Source: Halomonas sp. LBP4
GTDB taxonomy: Bacteria; Pseudomonadota; Gammaproteobacteria; Pseudomonadales; Halomonadaceae
DNA: 64,000 nucleotides
Assembly: GCF_003202205.1 (NCBI RefSeq)
Contig: NZ_PDOG01000001.1
Location: forward strand, 1,120,112 to 1,184,111
Direction of reading: 5' to 3'
A program made the position numbers and the translations under genes. Below are positions 627-12,308 of this stretch, one piece after another. A model generated the notes under the pieces. That model saw only the letters and a list, made by a program, of their open reading frames with translations. It was not told the origin of the DNA and ran no database searches. Position 1 is the stretch's first letter. The number at the start of each line of letters is the position of its first letter.

Positions 627-1829
627 TCAGCGCAGTACGCGACGCACCAGCAAAGGCCCCAGCGTCTCGAAGACCACGGTGGAGGCCACCACCGCCGCGA
701 GCAGCAGCGCCCCCTGCTCGGGATAACGCTCCACCGCCAGCAGCGCCATGCCCATGGCGATGCCGGCCTGGGGCGTCAGCGCCAGGCCGATATCGTGGGG
801 CAAGCGGGTACCGCGTTGCCGCGCCAGGTGGCCTCCCAGCACGCCGCCCAGGTAGCGCCCCGCCAGGCGCAGCGCGATATAGGCCAGGGTGAGCCAGAGG
901 GCGTCGCCCAGGTGGCGCAGGTCGATGCTGGCCCCGGAGAGCACGAAGAAGAACACCAGGAAGGGCCACTCGATGTGCTCGATCTCGTTGAACGAGCGCG
1001 TATGGTGGGAGGAGAGGTTGGCCACCAGGGCACCGGCGATCATCGCCGCGAGCAGGGCCGAGACCTCGAGCCAGGTGGCGAGCCCGGCCAGCAACAGGAT
1101 CAGTGCGATCGCCTCGACCTGGGTCGGCTCGCCGGGTCTCAGCCGCCCCGTCAGCCAGGCCGCCGGTAGCCCCACGGCGGCGCCGAGCACCAGCGCGCCG
1201 CCCAGTTCCCAGCCGGCCTGTGCCAGCGCCAGGCCGCCGTTACCGGAGAGCAGCCAGCCGAGCAGCGCCATGGCCAGCCCGAAGACGAGAATCCCCCAGG
1301 CATCGTCGATAGCCACGATGCCCATCAGCAGGCGGGCGCGCAAGCGGGTATCGCCACTCTCGTGCACCGTCTCGCTGACCGCCGCCGGGTCGGTGGCCAC
1401 CGAGATGGCGGCCAGACTCACCGCCACCGCCAGCGGGAAACCGAGCAGCAGCAGGCCGGCACCCACGAACAGCACCCCCATCACGATCACCGCCAGCGAG
1501 ACGATTACGATCAAGGGGCCGGTGCTGCGCAGCCGCTCCGGGGTCAGCTCGCCCCCCAGCAGGAAGGCCACCATCACCAGCGCCACCTGGATCAGCGGCT
1601 CGCTCAGGCCATCCAGCGGTCGGGCCCCGGTCTGGCCCAGGCCCCACTGCTGGGCGGCCGCCACCCCGACACCCACCAGCACCAGCAACGAGATGCGCGG
1701 CAGGCGGGTACGACTGGCCACCGCATCGGCAAAGATGCTCAGGCTGAGGATGAGTCCCAGGAGGATCAGGTTGGCCGTCGCGGTACCGGGCTCGGCCATG
1801 GGCCACTCCCAGGATGTGTCAGCCGTCAT
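627..1829 (-). CDS. CPA1-family cation:proton antiporter (NhaP-like)
   Basis: About 400 residues, almost entirely hydrophobic, with roughly a dozen membrane segments and no cytosolic regulatory domain. The helix pattern and an Asp pair inside a helix (SVATDPAAVSETV) match sodium/hydrogen exchangers of the CPA1 class, which swap Na+ or K+ for protons across the inner membrane. The ion cannot be read from sequence. I chose the ATG at 1829 because it overlaps the end of the upstream amidotransferase gene, which suggests translational coupling. An in-frame ATG at 1838 is also possible. Although co-directional with the amine cassette, it has no obvious role in that pathway beyond pH or ion homeostasis. 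Confidence 0.85.
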   Translation of the reverse strand: MTADTSWEWPMAEPGTATANLILLGLILSLSIFADAVASRTRLPRISLLVLVGVGVAAAQQWGLGQTGARPLDGLSEPLIQVALVMVAFLLGGELTPERLRSTGPLIVIVSLAVIVMGVLFVGAGLLLLGFPLAVAVSLAAISVATDPAAVSETVHESGDTRLRARLLMGIVAIDDAWGILVFGLAMALLGWLLSGNGGLALAQAGWELGGALVLGAAVGLPAAWLTGRLRPGEPTQVEAIALILLLAGLATWLEVSALLAAMIAGALVANLSSHHTRSFNEIEHIEWPFLVFFFVLSGASIDLRHLGDALWLTLAYIALRLAGRYLGGVLGGHLARQRGTRLPHDIGLALTPQAGIAMGMALLAVERYPEQGALLLAAVVASTVVFETLGPLLVRRVLR

Positions 1830-2547
1830 CTCCGCCACCCTCCATGGCCCGCTTCATGAAGTTCAGGATCCAGCGCACCATCAGGGTATCGTCCACCGGG
1901 GCATTGAGCGAGGCCTGGCCCTCGCGCACCCGATGGGCGCCCACCAGCTCGCGGCGCAGCTGCATCAGGTCCCGGGAGTAGGGTTTGGCGAATTCCGGGT
2001 GGCCCTGCACGCCGAGGAAGTGTTCGCCGACCTGCATCAGATAGACGGGACAGAAGTCGCTTTCCGCCAGCACGCGGGTCTGTGGCGGCAGTTCTTCCAC
2101 CTGGTCCTGATGGCTGACCACCAGGTCGAGCCCCTCCTGCCACGGCTCCATCCAGCCGGCACGCTCGGTGACCCGGTTGAACGACACCCCCACCCCCCAG
2201 CCGCGGGGGCTCTTGACCACCTCCCCGCCCAGCGCCCTGGCGATCAGCTGGTGGCCGAAGCAGATGCCCACCAGCGGCTTGCCGGAATGCCACAGCTCGC
2301 GCACGAAGCCGCACAGCGCGTCGACCCAGGCCAGGCCGTCGTTGACACCGAACTTCGATCCGGTGGTCAGCCAGGCGTCGACGGCGTTCACGTCGTCGGG
2401 GATCTCGCCGTCGAGGCAGCGCCAGACGCGGAACGTCAGGGTCGGATCCACCGATGTGAACAGGCGCTGGAACATCTCGGGGTAGTTGCCATGCGCCTCG
2501 CGCAGCTCCGGCGCCACGTCGTCGCATTGCAGAAGTCCGATATGCAT
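1819..2547 (-). CDS. Class I glutamine amidotransferase domain protein (probable gamma-glutamyl amide hydrolase)
   Basis: A 242-residue stand-alone class I amidotransferase. The nucleophile elbow GICFGHQ supplies the catalytic Cys, and VQGHPEF supplies the His and Glu of the triad. There is no synthase domain, so it probably acts as a hydrolase. It is the last enzyme gene of a four-gene minus-strand cassette with a glutamine-synthetase-like ligase, an aldehyde dehydrogenase and an iron alcohol dehydrogenase. By analogy with PuuD in the gamma-glutamyl putrescine pathway, I infer that it removes glutamate from a gamma-glutamylated acid product. The start at 2547 is preceded by AAGGAG. Sequence resemblance is closer to GMP-synthase-like amidotransferases than to PuuD itself, so the substrate is uncertain. 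Confidence 0.85.
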   Translation of the reverse strand: MHIGLLQCDDVAPELREAHGNYPEMFQRLFTSVDPTLTFRVWRCLDGEIPDDVNAVDAWLTTGSKFGVNDGLAWVDALCGFVRELWHSGKPLVGICFGHQLIARALGGEVVKSPRGWGVGVSFNRVTERAGWMEPWQEGLDLVVSHQDQVEELPPQTRVLAESDFCPVYLMQVGEHFLGVQGHPEFAKPYSRDLMQLRRELVGAHRVREGQASLNAPVDDTLMVRWILNFMKRAMEGGGDDG

Positions 2548-2567
2548 CGATGAATCTCCTTGGCAGC

Positions 2568-3752
2568 TTAGAGGCGTCCTTCGACAGCCTTGACGAAGAT
2601 CTCGCGATACTCACCGGCCTCGAAGGCGACGGGATTGGTACCGGAGGAGGGATCCGCCACCGCCATCTGCCCGACCTTGTCGGCCTGGCGGGTGTCGATG
2701 TCGAGCTCGGCCAGGGTATGCGGGATTCCCAGCCGCTCGCGCAGCTCCAGCACCCAGTCGATCACCGTCGCCGTGCCGGGCTGACGCAGGTCGAGGTAAC
2801 GCGCCAGCCGCACCATGGGTTCGCCGATGGCGCGCTCGTTGGCGCGCAGTACATAGGGCATCAGGATGGCATTCAGGGTGCCGTGGTGGGCGTCATGCAG
2901 GGCCCCCAGCGGATGGGCCAGGGCATGCATGGCCCCGAGCCCGCGCTGGAAGGCGGTGGCCCCCATCATCGAGGCCACCAGCATGTTCATCCGCGCCTCG
3001 AGATCGCCGCCGTCCCTGAAGGCGCGCGGCAGGAAGTCGCGGATCCGGCGCATGCCTTCCACGGCGATGCCCTCGGCCATGGGGTGATAGAGCGGCGAAC
3101 ACCAGGCCTCCAGGCAGTGCGACAGCGCATCCATGCCGGTGGCGGCGGTGATCGCCGGCGGCAGGCCGAGGGTCAGTTCGGGGTCGAGGATCACCGTGGC
3201 CGGCACCATGCCCGGGTGGAAGATGATGCGCTTGACGTGCGCGACCTCGTCGGTGATCACCGAGGCACGCCCGACCTCGGAGCCGGTGCCCGCGGTGGTG
3301 GGCACGGCGACGATGGGGACGATGGCCTCGCCATCGGCGTGCTTCCAGTTGTCGCCGACATCCTCCAGCGCCCACAGCGACAGCTCCTCGCGCTGGCGCG
3401 CCATCAGCGCCACGGCCTTGGCGGCGTCGAGCCCGGAGCCGCCACCGAAGGCGATCACCCCGTCGTGGCCGCCTTCGCGGAAGGCCGCCACGCCATCCAT
3501 GACATTCTTGCCGGTGGGGTTGCCCTTGATCTCGCTGAACACGGCGATGCCCAGCCCGGCATCCGCGCAGGCCTGGACCCGCTCGCGCACCATCGCCAGC
3601 CCCGCCAGGCCCGGGTCGGTGACCAGCAGCGGCGCGCGCATGCCCAGCGCCTGGCAAGCCCCGGGCAACTCACGGATGCGTCCGGCACCGGTCAGGATCT
3701 GGGCCGGATAGTGCCAGCCGGTGGTGAATCGACTCATATCGTCTTGGCTCAT
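2568..3752 (-). CDS. Iron-containing alcohol dehydrogenase
   Basis: A 394-residue group III (iron-type) alcohol dehydrogenase. The N-terminal half carries the NAD-binding GGGSGLDAAK motif. The C-terminal half has the metal-binding histidines in SHCLEAWCSP, AHPLGALHDAHHG and nearby. These enzymes oxidise primary alcohols to aldehydes or the reverse. The open frame extends upstream into the 7-bp repeat array, which would give an improbable repetitive N-terminus. The ATG at 3752 is preceded by AGAGGA at good spacing, so I use it; ATGs at 3770 and 3737 are alternatives. It lies 20 bp upstream of the amidotransferase gene. In this cassette it may oxidise the hydroxyl group of a gamma-glutamylated amino alcohol. 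Confidence 0.9.
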   Translation of the reverse strand: MSQDDMSRFTTGWHYPAQILTGAGRIRELPGACQALGMRAPLLVTDPGLAGLAMVRERVQACADAGLGIAVFSEIKGNPTGKNVMDGVAAFREGGHDGVIAFGGGSGLDAAKAVALMARQREELSLWALEDVGDNWKHADGEAIVPIVAVPTTAGTGSEVGRASVITDEVAHVKRIIFHPGMVPATVILDPELTLGLPPAITAATGMDALSHCLEAWCSPLYHPMAEGIAVEGMRRIRDFLPRAFRDGGDLEARMNMLVASMMGATAFQRGLGAMHALAHPLGALHDAHHGTLNAILMPYVLRANERAIGEPMVRLARYLDLRQPGTATVIDWVLELRERLGIPHTLAELDIDTRQADKVGQMAVADPSSGTNPVAFEAGEYREIFVKAVEGRL

Positions 3753-3810
3753 CGTATCCTCTATCGTCATGTCGCGGAGTTCGAAGCCATACCCGTCCCG
3801 GGAGCTGTCA

Positions 3811-3901
3811 GCTCGAAGCCCGAAGCTCGAAGCTCGAAGCTCGAAGCTCGAAGCTCGAAGCTCGAAGCTCGAAGCTCGAAGCTCGAAGCTCGAAGCTCGA
3901 A
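3811..3901. repeat. Heptanucleotide tandem array (GCTCGAA x13)
   Basis: Thirteen head-to-tail 7-bp units. Twelve are GCTCGAA and the second is GCCCGAA. The array fills the gap between the aldehyde dehydrogenase stop and the alcohol dehydrogenase start. Degenerate units in the same 7-bp phase length (GCTTACG, GCTTCCA, GCTTACA, GCTCCCC) follow at 3948-3975. It is not coding: the frame through it only extends a dehydrogenase that has a good start downstream. Confidence 0.95.
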
Positions 3902-3983
3902 GCCAAGCCTTGATTCGCCACACAAGCCCTCAAGGGGTTTTCTTGCAGCTTACGGCTTCCAGCTTACAGCTCCCCGAAGGGGC

Positions 3984-5369
3984 TCAAGCATGCTTCAGAT
4001 GGAAGGATTTCGGCCTCGTCAGGGTCTCGTAGCCGAGCCGCGACAACGAACAGCCACGGCCGGATTGCTTGATGCCGGTCCAGGCCAGTTCGGGGTCCAG
4101 GTAGTCGCAGCGGTTGGTGAACACCGTGCCGGCCTCGAGGCGCCGGGCGATGGCCTCACCGGCGGCGATATCGCGGGTGAAGACCGCCGCCGTCAGGCCG
4201 AAGTCGCTGTCGTTCATCAGACGCACGGCCTCGTCGTCGGAGTCCACCGGCATGATCCCCACCACGGGGCCGAAGCTCTCCTCGTGCATGACCCGCATGG
4301 AGTGGTCGACGCCGGTCAGCACCTGGGGCGCCAGATAGGCGCTGCCCGGCGTGGACAGCGGATAGTCGCCGGGATCGATCCAGGCCTGGGCGCCGGCCGC
4401 CACCGCCTCCTCGACCTGGCCGCGCACGAAGTCCGCCGCCGCCGGCTTGACCAGCGGGCCCAGGGTGGTCGCGGCGTCGGTGGGGTTGCCGAGCCTGAGC
4501 CGGCGAACCCAGGCCACCGCACGCGCGACGAAGGCGTCGAAGATCTCGCGCTGCACGTAGATCCGCTCGATGCCGCAGCAGCTCTGGCCGGAGTTGAAGA
4601 AGGCGCCGTCCATCACCCCCTTGATGGCAGTGTCCAGATCGACGTCGGCGCGGACATAGGCCGGGTCCTTGCCCCCCAGCTCCAGACCGGTGGCGATGAA
4701 GCGCCCGGCCGCGTTGCGTTCGACCATGGCGCCGCCGCCCACCGAACCGGTAAAGGAGACATGCTTGATGCGCGCATCGCGAATCAGCGCCTCGGTGGCC
4801 TCGTGCGACAGGTGCAGGTGCTGGAAGACACCCGGTGGCAGCCCCGCCTCGTCGAAGGCCTGCTGGAGGCGCTCGGCGCACAGCGGCGTCTGGGCCGAGT
4901 GCTTGAGGATCACCGAATTGCCGGCCATGATCGCCGGCACGATGGCGTTCACCGCGGTCATGAAGGGGAAGTTCCAGGGCGCGACGATGAAGGACACGCC
5001 CAGCGGTTCGCGGGTGATATAGCGGGTGAAGCCCGGCTTGTCGGGAAGTTCGATCGGCGCCAGCGCCGACTCGGCCAGGCCGATCATGCCCCGAGCGCGC
5101 TCCTCGAAACCCTTGATCTCGCCGCCGGCGGCGGCGATCGGCCGGCCCATCTGCCAGGTGAGTTCCTCGGCCAGTTCGTTGCGGCGGGCGACGAAGGTAT
5201 CGACCATCGCCGAGCACAGCCGGGTACGCTCGCAGAGCGGCACCTCACGCCAGGCCCGCTGAGCCACCACCGCCCGTTCAAGGGTCGCCTCCACCTGGGC
5301 CGCATCGGCCTGTTCCCGCTCCACATAGATCGAGCCGTCGACCGGGGAAATCGTTCTTTGTATGGCCAT
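3984..5369 (-). CDS. NAD(P)-dependent aldehyde dehydrogenase
   Basis: A 461-residue aldehyde dehydrogenase superfamily member of normal length. Landmarks in order are the Rossmann signature FTGSVGGG, the general base Glu in LELGGKDPAYV, and the catalytic Cys in FFNSGQSCCGIERIYV. The family oxidises aldehydes to acids, and the closest general type by eye is the succinate-semialdehyde/lactaldehyde group. It lies between the glutamine-synthetase-like ligase and the iron alcohol dehydrogenase on the same strand, separated from each by a heptanucleotide repeat region. I infer that it oxidises the gamma-glutamyl-amino aldehyde made in this cassette. The start at 5369 has GAGAGGA upstream, with rather long spacing. 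Confidence 0.92.
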   Translation of the reverse strand: MAIQRTISPVDGSIYVEREQADAAQVEATLERAVVAQRAWREVPLCERTRLCSAMVDTFVARRNELAEELTWQMGRPIAAAGGEIKGFEERARGMIGLAESALAPIELPDKPGFTRYITREPLGVSFIVAPWNFPFMTAVNAIVPAIMAGNSVILKHSAQTPLCAERLQQAFDEAGLPPGVFQHLHLSHEATEALIRDARIKHVSFTGSVGGGAMVERNAAGRFIATGLELGGKDPAYVRADVDLDTAIKGVMDGAFFNSGQSCCGIERIYVQREIFDAFVARAVAWVRRLRLGNPTDAATTLGPLVKPAAADFVRGQVEEAVAAGAQAWIDPGDYPLSTPGSAYLAPQVLTGVDHSMRVMHEESFGPVVGIMPVDSDDEAVRLMNDSDFGLTAAVFTRDIAAGEAIARRLEAGTVFTNRCDYLDPELAWTGIKQSGRGCSLSRLGYETLTRPKSFHLKHA

Positions 5370-5410
5370 AGTGTCTTGATCCTCTCGTTACAGGCGACGA
5401 ATCGTGTAAA

Positions 5411-5555
5411 GCCTCGAGCCACGAGCTTCGAGCTGCGAACCCCAAAACCGCCCGTTAGCCCGTCGCCCGTCGCCCGTCGCCCGTCGCCCGTCGCCCGTCG
5501 CCCGTCGCCCGTCGCCCGTCGCCCGTCGCCCGTAGCCCGTAGCCCGTAGCCCGTA
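5411..5555. repeat. Heptanucleotide tandem array (GCCCGTC x10, GCCCGTA x4) with degenerate flank
   Basis: Ten GCCCGTC units at 5458-5527 run into four GCCCGTA units at 5528-5555. The array abuts the stop codon of the glutamine-synthetase-like gene two bases away. On its other side, degenerate heptads in one phase (GCCTCGA, GCCACGA, GCTTCGA, GCTGCGA at 5411-5438) resemble the unit of the array at 3811-3901. The two arrays therefore appear to belong to one family of 7-bp repeats with consensus near GCYNCGA or GCCCGTN. Confidence 0.95.
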
Positions 5556-5557
5556 GC

Positions 5558-6940
5558 TCAGATAATCTCGAAGTACCGATCCAACTCCCAATCCGTGATA
5601 TGGCGGCGGAACTGCCGCTCCTCCCACTCCCGCGTCGCGGCGAAATGCTCCACGAACGCATCGCCGAACAGCGCGCGGGCCGCCTCGGAGGCCTTCAGCC
5701 GCTGGGCGGCCTCCCACAGGGTGCGCGGCAGGGCCAGGTGCTCGGGATGGTCGAGCTCGTAGGCATTGCCCTCGACCGGTTCGTCGGGCTCGAGTCGCTG
5801 TTCGATGCCGTAGAGCCCGGCACCGATGGCCGCCGCCAGCGCCAGGTAGGGGTTGGCATCGGCGCTGCCGAGGCGGTACTCGACACGCTGGGACTTGGCG
5901 CTGCCGGGAATCACGCGTAGCGCCGTGGTACGGTTCTCCACCCCCCAGGTGGCTTCGGTGGGCGCCCAGAAACCGGGAATCAGGCGCGTGTAGCTGTTGA
6001 TGGTCGGTGCGAACATGGCCAGGAATTCCGGCATCAGCTTCTGCTGGCCGGCCACGAAGTGACGCTGGATATCGCTCATCTGATAGGGCTTCTCGGCAGC
6101 GAAGAACGCCGAGGCGCCACTGTCGATCTCCCGTAGCGACAGGTGGATATGCCCGCTCTGGCCCGGGTAGTCGGGCGACCACTTGGCCATGAAGGTGGCC
6201 ATCAGGCCACGGCGCTGGGCCCAGACCTTGGTGAAGACCTTGAACAGCGCGCCCTTGTCGCCGGCGGCCAGGGCGCCGTCCACGCCAATGGCCGCCTCGA
6301 GAACGCCGGGGCCGGTCTCGGTGTGCAGGCCCTCGATAGGGAAGTCCATGGCTTCCGACAGCGCCAGCAGCTCATGATAGAGCTCGCTGTGCACCGAGCT
6401 GCGCAGCATCGAATAGCCCATCATGTCCGGCGTCAGCGGCTTGAGGTTGCGAAAGCCCTTCTCGCGCACCGACTCCGGCGTCTCCTGGAACAGGAAGAAC
6501 TCGTACTCCAGCGCCCCGAAGGCCTCGAAGCCCATCCCGCGTCCGCGCTCGAGTACGCGCTTCAACAGCCCACGCGGGCAGAGCTCTTCGGCCGGGCCGT
6601 CGAACTCGGCCAGGAACAGCAGCATGTCGTCGCCCTCGCAGGACAGCTCGCGACAGCTGCCGGGGATGACCTTCAGCGGCGCATCGGGATAGCCGGTATG
6701 CCAGCCGGTGAAGGTGACGTTGTCGTAGAGCTCATCCTTGCTGTCCCAGCCCAGCACCACGTCGCAGAAGGCGAAGCCGTCCTCCAGGGCCGAGAAGAAC
6801 TTGTCGCGGTGCATGTACTTGCCGAGCATCACGCCGTCGATGTCGAACATGCCCACCTTGACGTGGCTCAGGCCGCGCTCCTCGACGATCCGTCGGGCAT
6901 CCTCCGCGGTCTTGACGTCTCTCGCTTGCATTCGGCTCAT
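5558..6940 (-). CDS. Glutamine synthetase family protein (gamma-glutamyl-amine ligase type)
   Basis: A 460-residue member of the type I glutamine synthetase fold. It shows the catalytic-domain signatures HTETGPGVLE, SGHIHLS and, near the C-terminus, ENRTTALRVIPG with YRLGSADANPYLA. It lacks the adenylylation-site region expected of nitrogen-regulated GlnA, and is shorter and more divergent than housekeeping GlnA. That pattern fits PuuA/IpuC/GlnA4-type enzymes, which use ATP to join glutamate to an amine such as putrescine, isopropylamine or ethanolamine. It is the first gene of the minus-strand cassette and commits the amine to a protected gamma-glutamyl pathway. The start at 6940 has GAGGAA upstream. 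The exact amine is inference. Confidence 0.88.
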   Translation of the reverse strand: MSRMQARDVKTAEDARRIVEERGLSHVKVGMFDIDGVMLGKYMHRDKFFSALEDGFAFCDVVLGWDSKDELYDNVTFTGWHTGYPDAPLKVIPGSCRELSCEGDDMLLFLAEFDGPAEELCPRGLLKRVLERGRGMGFEAFGALEYEFFLFQETPESVREKGFRNLKPLTPDMMGYSMLRSSVHSELYHELLALSEAMDFPIEGLHTETGPGVLEAAIGVDGALAAGDKGALFKVFTKVWAQRRGLMATFMAKWSPDYPGQSGHIHLSLREIDSGASAFFAAEKPYQMSDIQRHFVAGQQKLMPEFLAMFAPTINSYTRLIPGFWAPTEATWGVENRTTALRVIPGSAKSQRVEYRLGSADANPYLALAAAIGAGLYGIEQRLEPDEPVEGNAYELDHPEHLALPRTLWEAAQRLKASEAARALFGDAFVEHFAATREWEERQFRRHITDWELDRYFEII

Positions 6941-7169
6941 CGCGCGTTCCTCAGTCTCTCATTGTTGTTGGAACACAAGGCTTTGTCCTCCACCCACCGG
7001 GACCCGGCGCATACCTGCAGTGTGATGCGGTTTCGAGACGCTCCGCAAACCGCAATGGCGGTTCCCCCTCGTGCCCCCGCTCGCCGACGGGGAACTCCCG
7101 CCGCCGTTTTCCGGTCAACAGCCACCATTGCCAATGGTGCCACCCCGTCATCACCACATGGAGGTCTCG

Positions 7170-7967
7170 ATGACTGCCCAGGCCGCCGCGACTGCCGCCG
7201 CCCGCCCCTCCTCCACCTGGACCGGCTGGGGACAGTGGCTGGCGCTGGCCACCATGACCATCGACCACCTGACCCGCTACGTGCTGCCGGTGAGCTGGGA
7301 GCTCGACTGGGCCGGCTCCTCGATCGGGCGCATCGCCTTCCCGCTGTTCGCCGCCATGGTCGCCTGGCACGGCCTCTTCAACACCCGTAACCCGCTGCGC
7401 TACGCCCGGCGCATCCTGGTGATCGGCCTGGTCGCCCAGTGGCCCTACATGATGATGCCGCGAGCCTCGGATGCGTTCCTGCTCAACGTCTGCTTCACCC
7501 TGGCCGCGGGGCTGGCCTGGGGCGCCTGGCTGCGCGGCCTGCTCGCCCGCCACCACCGCGGCGACCTGGAGGTGCCCTGGCTGGTCCTCGCGATCGTGGT
7601 CTCGCTGGCGGTCTGGCAGCTGCTCGGCGGCTGGGTCGAGTACGGTCACCGCGGCCTGCTGCTGATCCCGCTGCTCATGCTCGCCCTGCACCGGCTGCAC
7701 CAGGCCGGCGACGCCCTGACCGAACGCCTGGCGGCGGTGGCCTTCACGGTGCCGGTGCTGATAGTGGCCGGGCTGATGAACAGTTCCGACATGGCCAAGT
7801 CGTTCACCGTCGCCACCTGCCTGGCGGTGCTGTGGCTGGCCGCCGGCGCCCATCGCCTGACCCCCGAGGTCCCGAACGCCATGCCGAGACGGCTATGGCT
7901 CACCTGGTACCCGGGCCACTTCGCGCTGATCGCGCTATGGCTGTGGCTCAGCGGCACCATCGGCTGA
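7170..7967 (+). CDS. TraX-family integral membrane protein
   Basis: About 265 residues with seven or more membrane segments. The N-terminal motifs ATMTIDHLTRYVLP and SIGRIAFPLFAAMVAW match the TraX family, originally the F-plasmid pilin acetylase and found widely on chromosomes with no conjugation genes. No tra genes are visible nearby, so a role in conjugation is unlikely; chromosomal TraX proteins probably acylate some other molecule. The ATG at 7170 is fixed by GGAGG eight bases upstream. It is transcribed divergently from the glutamine-synthetase-like gene across a 229-bp gap that must contain both promoters. Confidence 0.8.
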   Translation: MTAQAAATAAARPSSTWTGWGQWLALATMTIDHLTRYVLPVSWELDWAGSSIGRIAFPLFAAMVAWHGLFNTRNPLRYARRILVIGLVAQWPYMMMPRASDAFLLNVCFTLAAGLAWGAWLRGLLARHHRGDLEVPWLVLAIVVSLAVWQLLGGWVEYGHRGLLLIPLLMLALHRLHQAGDALTERLAAVAFTVPVLIVAGLMNSSDMAKSFTVATCLAVLWLAAGAHRLTPEVPNAMPRRLWLTWYPGHFALIALWLWLSGTIG

Positions 7968-8111
7968 CTCGGGCCGTGGGCGTCGTGCCGGCTGACACCG
8001 CCGAGGTGGTGGTTTGTCACGCCCGACTTGACCTGTGTCAGGTCGTTCATCCGTGCGTGGTCCACACTGACACCAGGCAACATCCGTTTACCCCATGATT
8101 CAGGAGTTCAC

Positions 8112-9551
8112 ATGGCACGTCATGACAAGGGCGCCGGCCCGTGGCTGGTCCTCGGCCTGCCGATTGCCCTCGGACTGGCCTGGATCACCCAGGGCACCGG
8201 GGTGGTCGGCAACGATCACGAGCGCAATATCCATATCCCCGATGAGCTGACCATGCCGTTGCAGGTGCAGGCGGCCTACAACGGTGAGCAGATCTTCTTC
8301 CGCTACCGCTGGCCCGCCGAACGCGCCCACGTCTATCACGACATGTTGCGCTTCGAGGACGGCGAATGGATCCGTCACGGCAACTCCCGAGCCGGTCCCG
8401 ATCCCGACGGTACCTATGAGGACCGGGTGGCCATGCTGGTCGACGACGGTGGCGTGCCGGACTTCGGCCGCTACGGCGGCTACGTCACCGTCGGCGACCG
8501 GATGCGTTTCTTCAGCGACTCGGCCTCACCGGCAGACGTCACCGCCCATCCGCACCTGGGCGAGCGGCTCGGCCATAGCGACGTGCGCAAGTACCTGCCG
8601 GGCACGCGGACGGACCAGCATGACTGGCGCAGCGTGGTGGATGCCGACGTCCTGGCGACCCAGCGCGAGGCCGGCTACTTCCTCGACCTCTGGCACTGGC
8701 GCGCCGGACGCTCCAACCCCATCGGCGCCTCCGATGACCAATGGATCGGCGAGTATCGCAACAGCGACGCCGGCAGCGGGCCCTACACCACCAACTGGGA
8801 CGCCGACAACAACCGCCCGCTCTGGATGCTCGACCCCGAGCAGACCGGCCAGCGCGCGCTGCGCTGGGAGGACGTGACGTCCGGCCAGGTCGACTTCGAC
8901 GGCCTCTACTACCTGTCCGAGGCCAACCGCACCGACTTCGACCCCGATCACGACTGGCAGAACGGCGACGTGATCCCGCGCCGCCTGCTGCGCGATCCCG
9001 CCGGCTCCCGCGGCGACATCGCGGTGCACGGCCAGGCCCGCTGGGAGGACGGCCACTGGGACGTGACCCTGGTGCGCGACATGGATACCCGCAGTCCACT
9101 GGACGACAAGGCCTTCCGCGACCAGGGCGTCTACGACATCGCCATCGCCGTGTATCGCAATGCCACCGGCAGTCGCTGGCACTACGTCTCGCATCCCCAT
9201 TCACTGGGGCTCGGCCGCCATGCCGACATCCAGGCCCAACGTATCGACGGCGATGCTCCCGACTGGTCCGACGACTGGCTCGAGATGACCCTGTTCTACC
9301 CCGGGCAGGTGGACTGGCCGCTGCTGGTCAGCCGCGCCCACGCCGGGGCCGAGGACATCGCCGCCGGGACGCCGGTTCGGCCCCGCCACAGCGAGAAGCA
9401 ACTCGCCCTCTACGGCGTGGAGAGGGAGTTCAACGACGCCATCACCAGCCGCTGGTGGATGACCCTGGCCGCCGGCCTGATCGCCATGCTCGGCGTGACC
9501 CTCGCCCTGCTGCCCGCCTTCCGCCCGACTCGCCGAGGAGACCGCTCATGA
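8112..9551 (+). CDS. Membrane-anchored ethylbenzene-dehydrogenase-type haem-binding protein
   Basis: A 479-residue protein with an N-terminal hydrophobic anchor (residues ~10-28), a long extracytoplasmic beta-rich region and a C-terminal membrane helix (WWMTLAAGLIAMLGVTLALL). The central part resembles the b-haem-binding gamma subunit domain of ethylbenzene dehydrogenase and DMSO-reductase-family enzymes, for example IHIPDELTMPLQVQAAYNGEQIFFRYRW near the start and QARWEDGHWDVTLVRDM later. I infer a periplasmic, haem-carrying electron-transfer protein. No molybdoenzyme alpha or beta subunit is visible nearby. Its stop overlaps the ATG of the next gene (ATGA), so the two are coupled. AGGAG lies just before the ATG at 8112. 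Confidence 0.72.
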   Translation: MARHDKGAGPWLVLGLPIALGLAWITQGTGVVGNDHERNIHIPDELTMPLQVQAAYNGEQIFFRYRWPAERAHVYHDMLRFEDGEWIRHGNSRAGPDPDGTYEDRVAMLVDDGGVPDFGRYGGYVTVGDRMRFFSDSASPADVTAHPHLGERLGHSDVRKYLPGTRTDQHDWRSVVDADVLATQREAGYFLDLWHWRAGRSNPIGASDDQWIGEYRNSDAGSGPYTTNWDADNNRPLWMLDPEQTGQRALRWEDVTSGQVDFDGLYYLSEANRTDFDPDHDWQNGDVIPRRLLRDPAGSRGDIAVHGQARWEDGHWDVTLVRDMDTRSPLDDKAFRDQGVYDIAIAVYRNATGSRWHYVSHPHSLGLGRHADIQAQRIDGDAPDWSDDWLEMTLFYPGQVDWPLLVSRAHAGAEDIAAGTPVRPRHSEKQLALYGVEREFNDAITSRWWMTLAAGLIAMLGVTLALLPAFRPTRRGDRS

Positions 9552-10286: not shown

Positions 10287-12308
10287 ATGAAACAGCCCCA
10301 GTACATCGGCACCACCGACCCGATTCTCGCCGCCGGCGACGAACCCGCCAGCAACACGTCGCCCAATGCCTACTTCGGCGACATTCTCGACGCCCGCCTG
10401 AGCCGTCGCACGCTGCTGCGCGGCAGCCTGGCCGCCGCCGTGGCCGGCGCCATGGCCACCACCCTGCCCTTCGGCCGCGTCCTGGCCGCCGGCACGGGTG
10501 CCCCGGCCCCCAGTCTCGGCTTCAAGGCGATTCCGGTCAGCGCCGCCGACAGCGTGGTGGTGCCGGAAGGCTACCGGGTACAGACCTTCATTCCCTGGGG
10601 CACGCCGATCAACGGCGGCATGCCGGCCTTCTCGCTGGACGCCAGCGGCGAGGACCAGGCCCAGCAGGTGGGCAGCCACCACGACGGCATGCACTTCTTC
10701 CCCCTCGACGGCAGCTCCCGCGACGGCCTGCTGGTGCTCAACCACGAGTACGTGGAGCCGCGCTACCTGCACGGCGCCGCCCGGGGCCTGGCCCTCGACT
10801 CGGAGGGCTTTCCGCAACACGAGGACGGTTCCCGCGACCCCGACCAGGTGCTCAAGGAACTCAACGCCCATGGCGTCTCCGTCGTTCGCGTGCGCCAGGG
10901 TGCCGACGGCCAGTGGCAGGTGGTCGAGGACGCCCGCAACCGTCGCATCACCGGCCTCACGCCGATGCGCCTGGCCGGGCCGGTGGCCGGCACCGGGCAC
11001 GTGGTGACGAAGTTCAGCCCCGACGGCAGCATGACCCGCGGCACCCTCAACAACTGCTCCAGCGGCGTCACCCCCTGGAACACCTACCTGGCCGCCGAGG
11101 AGAACTGGGCCGGCTACTTCGCCAACGAGGACCCCGAGATCGAGCGCCGCCAGGCGCGTTACGGCATCCAGACGCGCGACACGGGGCGTTACCAGTGGCA
11201 CCGGGCGGCGGGCGGCGCCGACGAGACCCTGCGCTTCGATGCCAGCACCCGCGGCGCCTCGGCCCGGGACGACTACCGCAACGAGCCGCACGCCTTCGGC
11301 TACATGGTCGAGATCGACCCCATGGACCCGCAATCGACGCCGGTCAAGCGCACCCACCTCGGGCGCTTCGCCCACGAAGGGGTGATCTTCGCCCCCGCCG
11401 TGGAGGGCCAGCCGGTGGTCTGCTACTCGGGCGACGACGCCCGCTTCGAGTACATCTACAAGTTCGTCTCGGCCAGGCCCTTCCATGCCGCCACGGCCGA
11501 CGGCTCGCTGCTGGATGAAGGCACGCTCCATGTGGCGAAGTTCCACGATAATGGCAGCGGCGAGTGGCTGGCCCTGGCCCCGGGCGAGAACGGCCTGACC
11601 CCGGAGAACGGCTTCACCGATCTGGCCGACATCCTGGTCAACACCCGCAGCGCCGCCGACCATGTCGGCGCCACCAGGATGGACCGCCCCGAGTGGGGCG
11701 CCGTGGACCCGGTCACCGGCCGGGTCTACTTCACCCTGACCAACAACACCCGCCGCGAGCCGGGCCAGGAGGATGCCGCCAACCCGCGGTCCGACAACGG
11801 CTTCGGTCATATCATCCGCTGGCAGGAAGACGGCTCCCACGCCGGCACGCGCTTCGCCTGGGATCTCTTCATGCTGGGCGGCGACCGGGAGAACGGCCGC
11901 AACCCGGCCGGCGAGCCACTCGGCGATGACGCCATCTTCGCCAGCCCGGACGGCCTGTGGATCGACCCGGACCGCCGCGTCTGGATCCAGACCGACATCA
12001 GCGAGTCGGTGATGAACAACGGCATCTACGAGGTATTCGGCAACAACCAGATGCTGGCCGCCACCCCGGAGAGCGGCGAGATCAAGCGCTTCCTCACCGG
12101 CCCCGTGGGCCAGGAGATCACCGGCGTGATCACCACCCCGGACCAGCGCACCATGTTCGTCAATGTCCAGCACCCGGGCGCCACCACCGACGCCGAGGCC
12201 TTCGCCGCCGGCGACTTCGCCAGTCACTGGCCGGAGGGCGGCAGCGCCGTTCCCCGTTCGGCCACCCTGGTGATTACCCGCGAGGACGGCGGCATCATCG
12301 GCACGTGA
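10287..12308 (+). CDS. phoX: PhoX-family (DUF839) phosphatase, Tat-exported
   Basis: A 673-residue protein whose N-terminus carries a twin-arginine signal (SRRTLLRGSLAAAVAG at about residues 37-52), so it is exported folded to the periplasm. The rest matches the PhoX/DUF839 family of Ca- and Fe-dependent alkaline phosphatases: GVSVVRVRQG, RITGLTPMRLAGPVAG, NCSSGVTPWNTYLAAEENW, and a C-terminal segment with PDGLWIDPDRRVWIQTD. These enzymes release phosphate from organic phosphate monoesters. I looked for a clear Pho box upstream and did not find one. A CGTGAC-N8-GTCACG inverted repeat at 10186-10205 is the only candidate operator. It is a single gene between terminators. Confidence 0.88.
   Translation: MKQPQYIGTTDPILAAGDEPASNTSPNAYFGDILDARLSRRTLLRGSLAAAVAGAMATTLPFGRVLAAGTGAPAPSLGFKAIPVSAADSVVVPEGYRVQTFIPWGTPINGGMPAFSLDASGEDQAQQVGSHHDGMHFFPLDGSSRDGLLVLNHEYVEPRYLHGAARGLALDSEGFPQHEDGSRDPDQVLKELNAHGVSVVRVRQGADGQWQVVEDARNRRITGLTPMRLAGPVAGTGHVVTKFSPDGSMTRGTLNNCSSGVTPWNTYLAAEENWAGYFANEDPEIERRQARYGIQTRDTGRYQWHRAAGGADETLRFDASTRGASARDDYRNEPHAFGYMVEIDPMDPQSTPVKRTHLGRFAHEGVIFAPAVEGQPVVCYSGDDARFEYIYKFVSARPFHAATADGSLLDEGTLHVAKFHDNGSGEWLALAPGENGLTPENGFTDLADILVNTRSAADHVGATRMDRPEWGAVDPVTGRVYFTLTNNTRREPGQEDAANPRSDNGFGHIIRWQEDGSHAGTRFAWDLFMLGGDRENGRNPAGEPLGDDAIFASPDGLWIDPDRRVWIQTDISESVMNNGIYEVFGNNQMLAATPESGEIKRFLTGPVGQEITGVITTPDQRTMFVNVQHPGATTDAEAFAAGDFASHWPEGGSAVPRSATLVITREDGGIIGT

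Follow-up and report, generated by a model that had tools for sequence, protein, structure and literature searches.

The stretch of DNA analysed here, called the window, comprises 64,000 nucleotides of the genome of Halomonas sp. LBP4, and its minus strand carries an operon of four genes for the predicted gamma-glutamylation, oxidation and release of a small amino alcohol. The genes and the two tandem arrays between them are listed below.

5558-6940, minus strand: gamma-glutamyl ligase of the glutamine synthetase (GS) type, hereafter the window type (460 amino acids; PF00120, 323 bits)
5449-5554: 7-bp tandem array, CGCCCGT x15, in the gap between the ligase and aldehyde dehydrogenase genes
3984-5369, minus strand: aldehyde dehydrogenase (ALDH; 461 amino acids; PF00171, 425 bits)
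3810-3903: 7-bp tandem array, AGCTCGA x13.4, in the gap between the aldehyde and alcohol dehydrogenase genes
2568-3752, minus strand: iron-containing alcohol dehydrogenase (ADH; 394 amino acids from the ATG at 3752; PF00465, 161 bits, and PF25137, 130 bits)
1819-2547, minus strand: class-I glutamine amidotransferase-like hydrolase (GAT; 242 amino acids; PF00117, 54 bits)

The genes are transcribed in the order ligase, ALDH, ADH and GAT, and all four frames are intact. An earlier note on this DNA had claimed four such genes with this strand and extent, and the frames, family matches and motifs confirm them. The ALDH retains residues E230 and C264, the GAT triad of C96, H183 and E185 is in place, and the ADH has D208, H212 and H276 together with H290, the latter read off the sequence; its metal positions are assigned by analogy with FucO. 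The ADH frame as listed, of 451 amino acids, begins upstream of the tandem array, and the family scan with PF00465 and PF25137 took the frame from 3764; the start is likely the ATG at 3752, which AGAGG precedes. Among the matches listed, none of the four proteins passed the cutoff of an NCBIfam model (25 of the 45 models that the ALDH matched). The ligase passes neither the GlnA cutoff nor that of gamma-glutamylputrescine synthetase, and the GAT reaches 213 bits on PRK05665 against a cutoff of 309. The window ligase lacks the FDGSS motif that both GlnA-like proteins of the genome have, and by family and motif it is a GS-type ligase other than the ammonia-type GlnA.

The layout is kept among relatives. 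In a same-genus sample of 37 genomes there are 22 carriers, the contigs of two of which end early, and the order ligase-ALDH-ADH-GAT is found in 20 of the 20 with a covering contig, the window's own genome counted. A wider sample took the best 80 of at least 582 related stretches, all of them named loci, with genes called at 70 bits or more, above 40% identity, on the same strand and no more than 8 kb away; contig ends truncate some of the loci. The ligase, ALDH and ADH occur together in 74 of these 80 loci, the amidotransferase in 45, the transporter binding protein EtoX in 30 and a permease in 18. Conservation of the gene order is greater than expected by chance. In one of the same-genus carriers (L048) the GAT is split into two overlapping pieces.

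The operon quite probably serves the catabolism of ethanolamine to glycine by gamma-glutamylation, independently of vitamin B12, with the substrate and each reaction assigned from protein families and gene context. The ligase would join ethanolamine to glutamate with the use of ATP, giving gamma-glutamylethanolamide, which the iron ADH would oxidise to gamma-glutamyl-aminoacetaldehyde and the ALDH in turn to gamma-glutamylglycine; the amidotransferase, a candidate for the last step, would then release glycine and return glutamate for recycling. The glutamate handle would keep the amino aldehyde bound. A four-step amino-alcohol route of this kind had been proposed in the earlier note, and it gains support from the ethanolamine-type transporters of relatives, from exclusion within the family and from separate putrescine/polyamine-type clusters in the genome. 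The absence of an amine oxidase or aminotransferase, on which that proposal leaned, also holds: none is present in the open reading frame list or family scan of the window, and elsewhere the genome carries such genes next to two other GS-type ligases.

Enzyme lineages and known ethanolamine systems

The proposed pathway is of a known kind, since gamma-glutamylation of ethanolamine has already been published. According to the available text of Krysenko et al. (2019; PMC6529630), GlnA4 of Streptomyces coelicolor was characterised and the later ethanolamine steps were predicted. The accessible part of Westermann et al. (2023; PMC10132767) describes a Phaeobacter cluster that is induced on phosphoethanolamine, whose EtoX binds ethanolamine with a Kd of 7.9 uM and whose genes are called closely related to ones demonstrated in Chromohalobacter salexigens and Agrobacterium tumefaciens; it is also the source for ethanolamine binding by the C. 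salexigens protein. For C. salexigens, the available portion of a 2022 review (PMC9397018) gives the families PF00120, PF00465, PF00171 and PF05013.

With this Eto/Csal system (Csal_0678/0679 in C. salexigens; EtoVWX-ETAGA-GAADDH-GETADH-GGAH in Phaeobacter sp. MED193) the window operon has in common a GS-type ligase, an iron ADH of PF00465 and an ALDH of PF00171, and a related EtoX transporter is found in many window-type clusters. The published layout, FGase-TRAP-ligase-ALDH-ADH, occurs in five relatives (L062, L063, L068, L069 and L070), with an RpiR gene in each except L069, where none was found. Compared with the L062 cluster, whose ligase matches 5dm3 (Csal_0679) at 914 bits, the window ADH is 54% and the ALDH 52% identical, which places both with their Eto-type counterparts; identity of the ALDH to PuuC is 34%. 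In three further loci (L131, L160 and L139) a window-type ligase accompanies reordered TRAP genes, L131 and L160 also carrying the RpiR gene of the Eto layout; the three are possible intermediates between the layouts.

The differences from the Eto/Csal system lie in the ligase, the hydrolase and the regulator. The window ligase is 31-36% identical to four Csal_0679-type ligases and falls outside the clade of Csal_0679, which belongs to another branch. It is 30-32% identical to PuuA and the genome's two putrescine/polyamine-type ligases, and 40% identical to IpuC, the closest ligase found that is named by its substrate. A 23-row tree, which has moderate supports, some long end branches and a single named IpuC, places IpuC beside the window type (88/85), with the Eto clade separate (support for the wider group 93/92); in an earlier tree that lacked IpuC, the Eto clade was sister to the window type (90/83), and the grouping changed after IpuC and other rows were added. 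The structure model of the ligase (mean predicted local distance difference test score, pLDDT, 79) matches 5dm3 (Z 38.9, root-mean-square deviation 2.6, 362 aligned) and the ammonia-type GS 8s59 (Z 39.1, 2.8 and 414, respectively) equally well, so the fold cannot separate substrates. The GAT, of PF00117, sits where the published Eto cluster has a PF05013 hydrolase, and the window's genome gave no match to the PF05013 gamma-glutamylglycine hydrolase in a search that rang in 1 of 14 controls. A joint exchange of ligase and hydrolase is made less likely by Pseudomonas and Microbulbifer clusters with no amidotransferase found nearby; in the few of these read frame by frame, no other hydrolase was recognised. 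Lastly, the Eto/Csal regulator is of the RpiR family, whereas LysR is found in most Halomonadaceae clusters seen, and the window member itself has neither an adjoining regulator nor a transporter.

Two further systems bear comparison. By gene content, in the available text, the S. coelicolor GlnA4 (SCO1613) cluster likewise contains a ligase, an ALDH, a dehydrogenase and a glutamine amidotransferase (orf5), but its orf2 is a short-chain dehydrogenase instead of an iron ADH and SCO1615 is proposed as the hydrolase. EutBC has the proposed substrate in common, and a permease of the same family as its own stands in many window-type clusters; unlike the window operon, it is a B12-dependent lyase giving acetaldehyde and ammonia.

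The chemistry is known, and what differs here is the ligase and hydrolase lineages, in a variant that is widespread. With a dehydrogenase pair and a transporter shared with the Eto cluster, and an IpuC-side ligase and a class-I amidotransferase from other lineages, there is about an even chance that it represents a second, separately assembled route, which may be a main B12-independent one of many gammaproteobacteria. No title or abstract describing this variant was found among the open-access papers searched; the 2015 work on C. salexigens, reportedly the source for the pathway in that organism, may describe it.

Transporters, exclusion and the choice of substrate

All searches on transporters and exclusion used one set of 250 family genomes, sampled evenly out of a larger group. 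The window-type ligase is present in 62 of them, the Chromohalobacter (Csal)-type ligase in 23 and EutB in 110, while 56 have none of the three. An EtoX-like binding protein at 89% or more accompanies 39 of the 62 window-type carriers, always less than 4 kb from the ligase, and none of the 188 non-carriers. EtoX scores are bimodal, with 62 genomes at 1.7e-159 or better and the rest no better than 1.1e-36 or unmatched. The 23 genomes with EtoX at 66-69% are exactly the 23 carriers of the Csal-type ligase, and EtoX of one cluster type is 66-69% identical to EtoX of the other. The EtoX-like protein matches 4uab (Csal_0678; also 4xf5) at 535 bits, with the next entries at 50 bits. Its structure prediction is poor (mean pLDDT 48), so nothing but the entry titles, for 4uab and 4xf5, is taken from the structure comparison. 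These titles are cut before the ligand; the ligands are presumably ethanolamine and 2-amino-1-propanol.

In 20 of the 23 window-type carriers lacking EtoX, an APC permease lies upstream of the ligase. One permease of each type was scanned against TIGR00908, the ethanolamine permease model (cutoff 381.75), on which that of L043 reaches 550 bits and the variant of L096 reaches 358; 11 of the 20 are 79-100% identical to the passing protein, one of them in two pieces, and the other nine are 40-42% identical to it. At L105 and L176, which apparently belong to one genome, the ethanolamine-type permease is in two pieces and possibly broken. The remaining three carriers (the window's genome, G009 and G088) have neither EtoX nor permease upstream, as is also the case for G033, from outside the 62-carrier sample.

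The routes themselves exclude one another within the family. No genome combines the window-type and Csal-type ligases (within-genus shuffles mean 8.5, 0/10000 as low), a single genome, G063, combines the window-type ligase with EutB (mean 8.4, 0/10000 as low), and none has both the Csal-type ligase and EutB (mean 3.3, 34/10000 as low). In G063, the window-type ligase and EutB (L099, L108) each have their own adjoining permease, that beside eutB being of the same family (490 bits). Ethanolamine is favoured because EtoX-like or TIGR00908-type transporters adjoin the ligase and because EutB and the Eto-type ligase are excluded in the family. The earlier note had named it, beside propanolamine, as an example, with glycine as its product; it fits the genome evidence and appears to be the best-supported substrate, with other amino alcohols as a rival.

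Several observations weigh against ethanolamine. Relatedness inside a genus stays in the within-genus shuffles. Outside the family, EutB occurs in 13 of 50 carriers tested (11 of the 15 from Pseudomonas/Halopseudomonas and 2 of the remaining 35), and for that reason the exclusion is not general; such coexistence may reflect a division of labour or a different substrate. In the window's genome no close EtoX was found (best 1.2e-22), its cluster holds no EtoVWX TRAP transporter, and nothing scored above the TIGR00908 cutoff (family model; best 82 bits); a search with the permease protein itself gave no match, which is weakly informative. Among ligases, the nearest one named by substrate makes an isopropylamide, plasmid-borne relatives at 54-55% adjoin aminotransferase and polyamine ABC transporter genes, and some at 47-72% have no adjoining ALDH or ADH (L058, L061, L064, L136 and L170). 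Given these other neighbours, ligase homology alone leaves the substrate unfixed. A Burkholderia ligase at 59% adjoins an ALDH and an amidotransferase, with no ADH among the genes listed in an incomplete table. The amino-alcohol version is marked by the dehydrogenase pair more than by the ligase.

The same chemistry might instead act mainly on another amino alcohol (2-amino-1-propanol, 1-amino-2-propanol or 3-amino-1-propanol), yielding alanine or another acid. The affinity to IpuC could be read in this way, as IpuC belongs to an amine pathway, one that runs through alaninol, and the 11 Pseudomonas/Halopseudomonas carriers with EutB would have no need of another route for ethanolamine. The transporters adjoining the ligase make this unlikely, as does the avoidance of EutB and of the Eto-type ligase in the family.

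A putrescine or diamine pathway, with the ADH serving another step, would suit the polyamine neighbours of the 54-55% ligases, but it is very improbable. The Escherichia coli Puu system does share the gamma-glutamyl handle, an ALDH and a hydrolase of the class-I amidotransferase superfamily; its PuuB oxidase, however, takes the place of the alcohol dehydrogenase, its ligase is 30% identical, and the window cluster contains no oxidase or aminotransferase. Moreover, other clusters in the genome suit that role, one (L037) with a PuuA-like ligase, a PF00202 aminotransferase, an ALDH and a PF07722 hydrolase, and another (L038) with a GS-type ligase, flavin adenine dinucleotide (FAD) oxidoreductases and a solute-binding protein. 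An isopropylamine pathway is scarcely credible: the IpuC (gamma-glutamylisopropylamide synthetase) clusters on pTC1 and pTC2 of Paenarthrobacter aurescens TC1 also have a class-I amidotransferase nearby, but the genes for a P450, a ferredoxin and a reductase that accompany ipuC are absent here, as is any monooxygenase, a short-chain dehydrogenase is present there, the ALDHs are 34-36% identical, and the two pTC2 amidotransferases compared are 24-28% identical.

Ethanolamine is a main phospholipid head group, and an ethanolamine role for this operon would alter how its users are counted. A screen for EutB would score these bacteria as non-users, and one for the Csal-type ligase would miss them as well, even though the window type is the commoner in the family (62/250 against 23/250 genomes). 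The exclusion pattern can serve at once as a genetic test, and a natural comparison of GS-type enzymes handling one small amine is provided by the two ligase branches.

The Halomonas sp. LBP4 copy and its surroundings

Upstream of the ligase, the window differs from the nearest relative examined (L089) at one point.

7055-7062: putative deletion junction; here L089 has a LysR-TRAP-EtoX-LysR block of about 5.3 kb that the window lacks

Similarity to L089 over the 260 bases upstream of the ligase falls into two segments, separated in that relative by about 5.3 kb (6966-7054 with L089 8423-8506, and 7063-7200 with L089 2962-3101), and the intervening block of L089 holds a LysR gene, TRAP, EtoX and a second LysR gene. 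Since relatives carry this block or a counterpart, the simpler reading is that the window's genome deleted it, and with it the regulator and transporter. EutB was not found in this genome either. From the loss of the neighbouring transporter it follows that ethanolamine would have to diffuse in, use a different carrier or originate inside the cell.

The deletion, and the similar lack of such a transporter upstream in G009, G088 and G033, could also mark the operon as a decaying remnant, a reading as improbable as the isopropylamine pathway. The four intact frames argue against decay, as do ratios of nonsynonymous to synonymous substitution (dN/dS) of 0.06-0.20 in 16 comparisons (four genes by four relatives), though these mostly reflect the history before the deletion and are no proof of later selection.

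A PhoX alkaline phosphatase (PF05787, 535 bits) is encoded at 10287-12308 on the plus strand, about 3.3 kb upstream of the ligase, and a homologue, whole or cut, is found in the stretches of seven other carriers (L097/L116, L067, L090, L112, L121, L124 and L125). In the accessible part of PMC10132767, Phaeobacter PhoX is described as acting on phosphoethanolamine, so a link between PhoX and the operon is possible. Closer to the operon, also on the plus strand, lie genes for a TraX-family membrane protein (7071-7967), often its neighbour across the family, and for a protein with an ethylbenzene-dehydrogenase domain (8028-9551). Arrays of 7-mers, with a varying unit, are located elsewhere in the stretches of several relatives.

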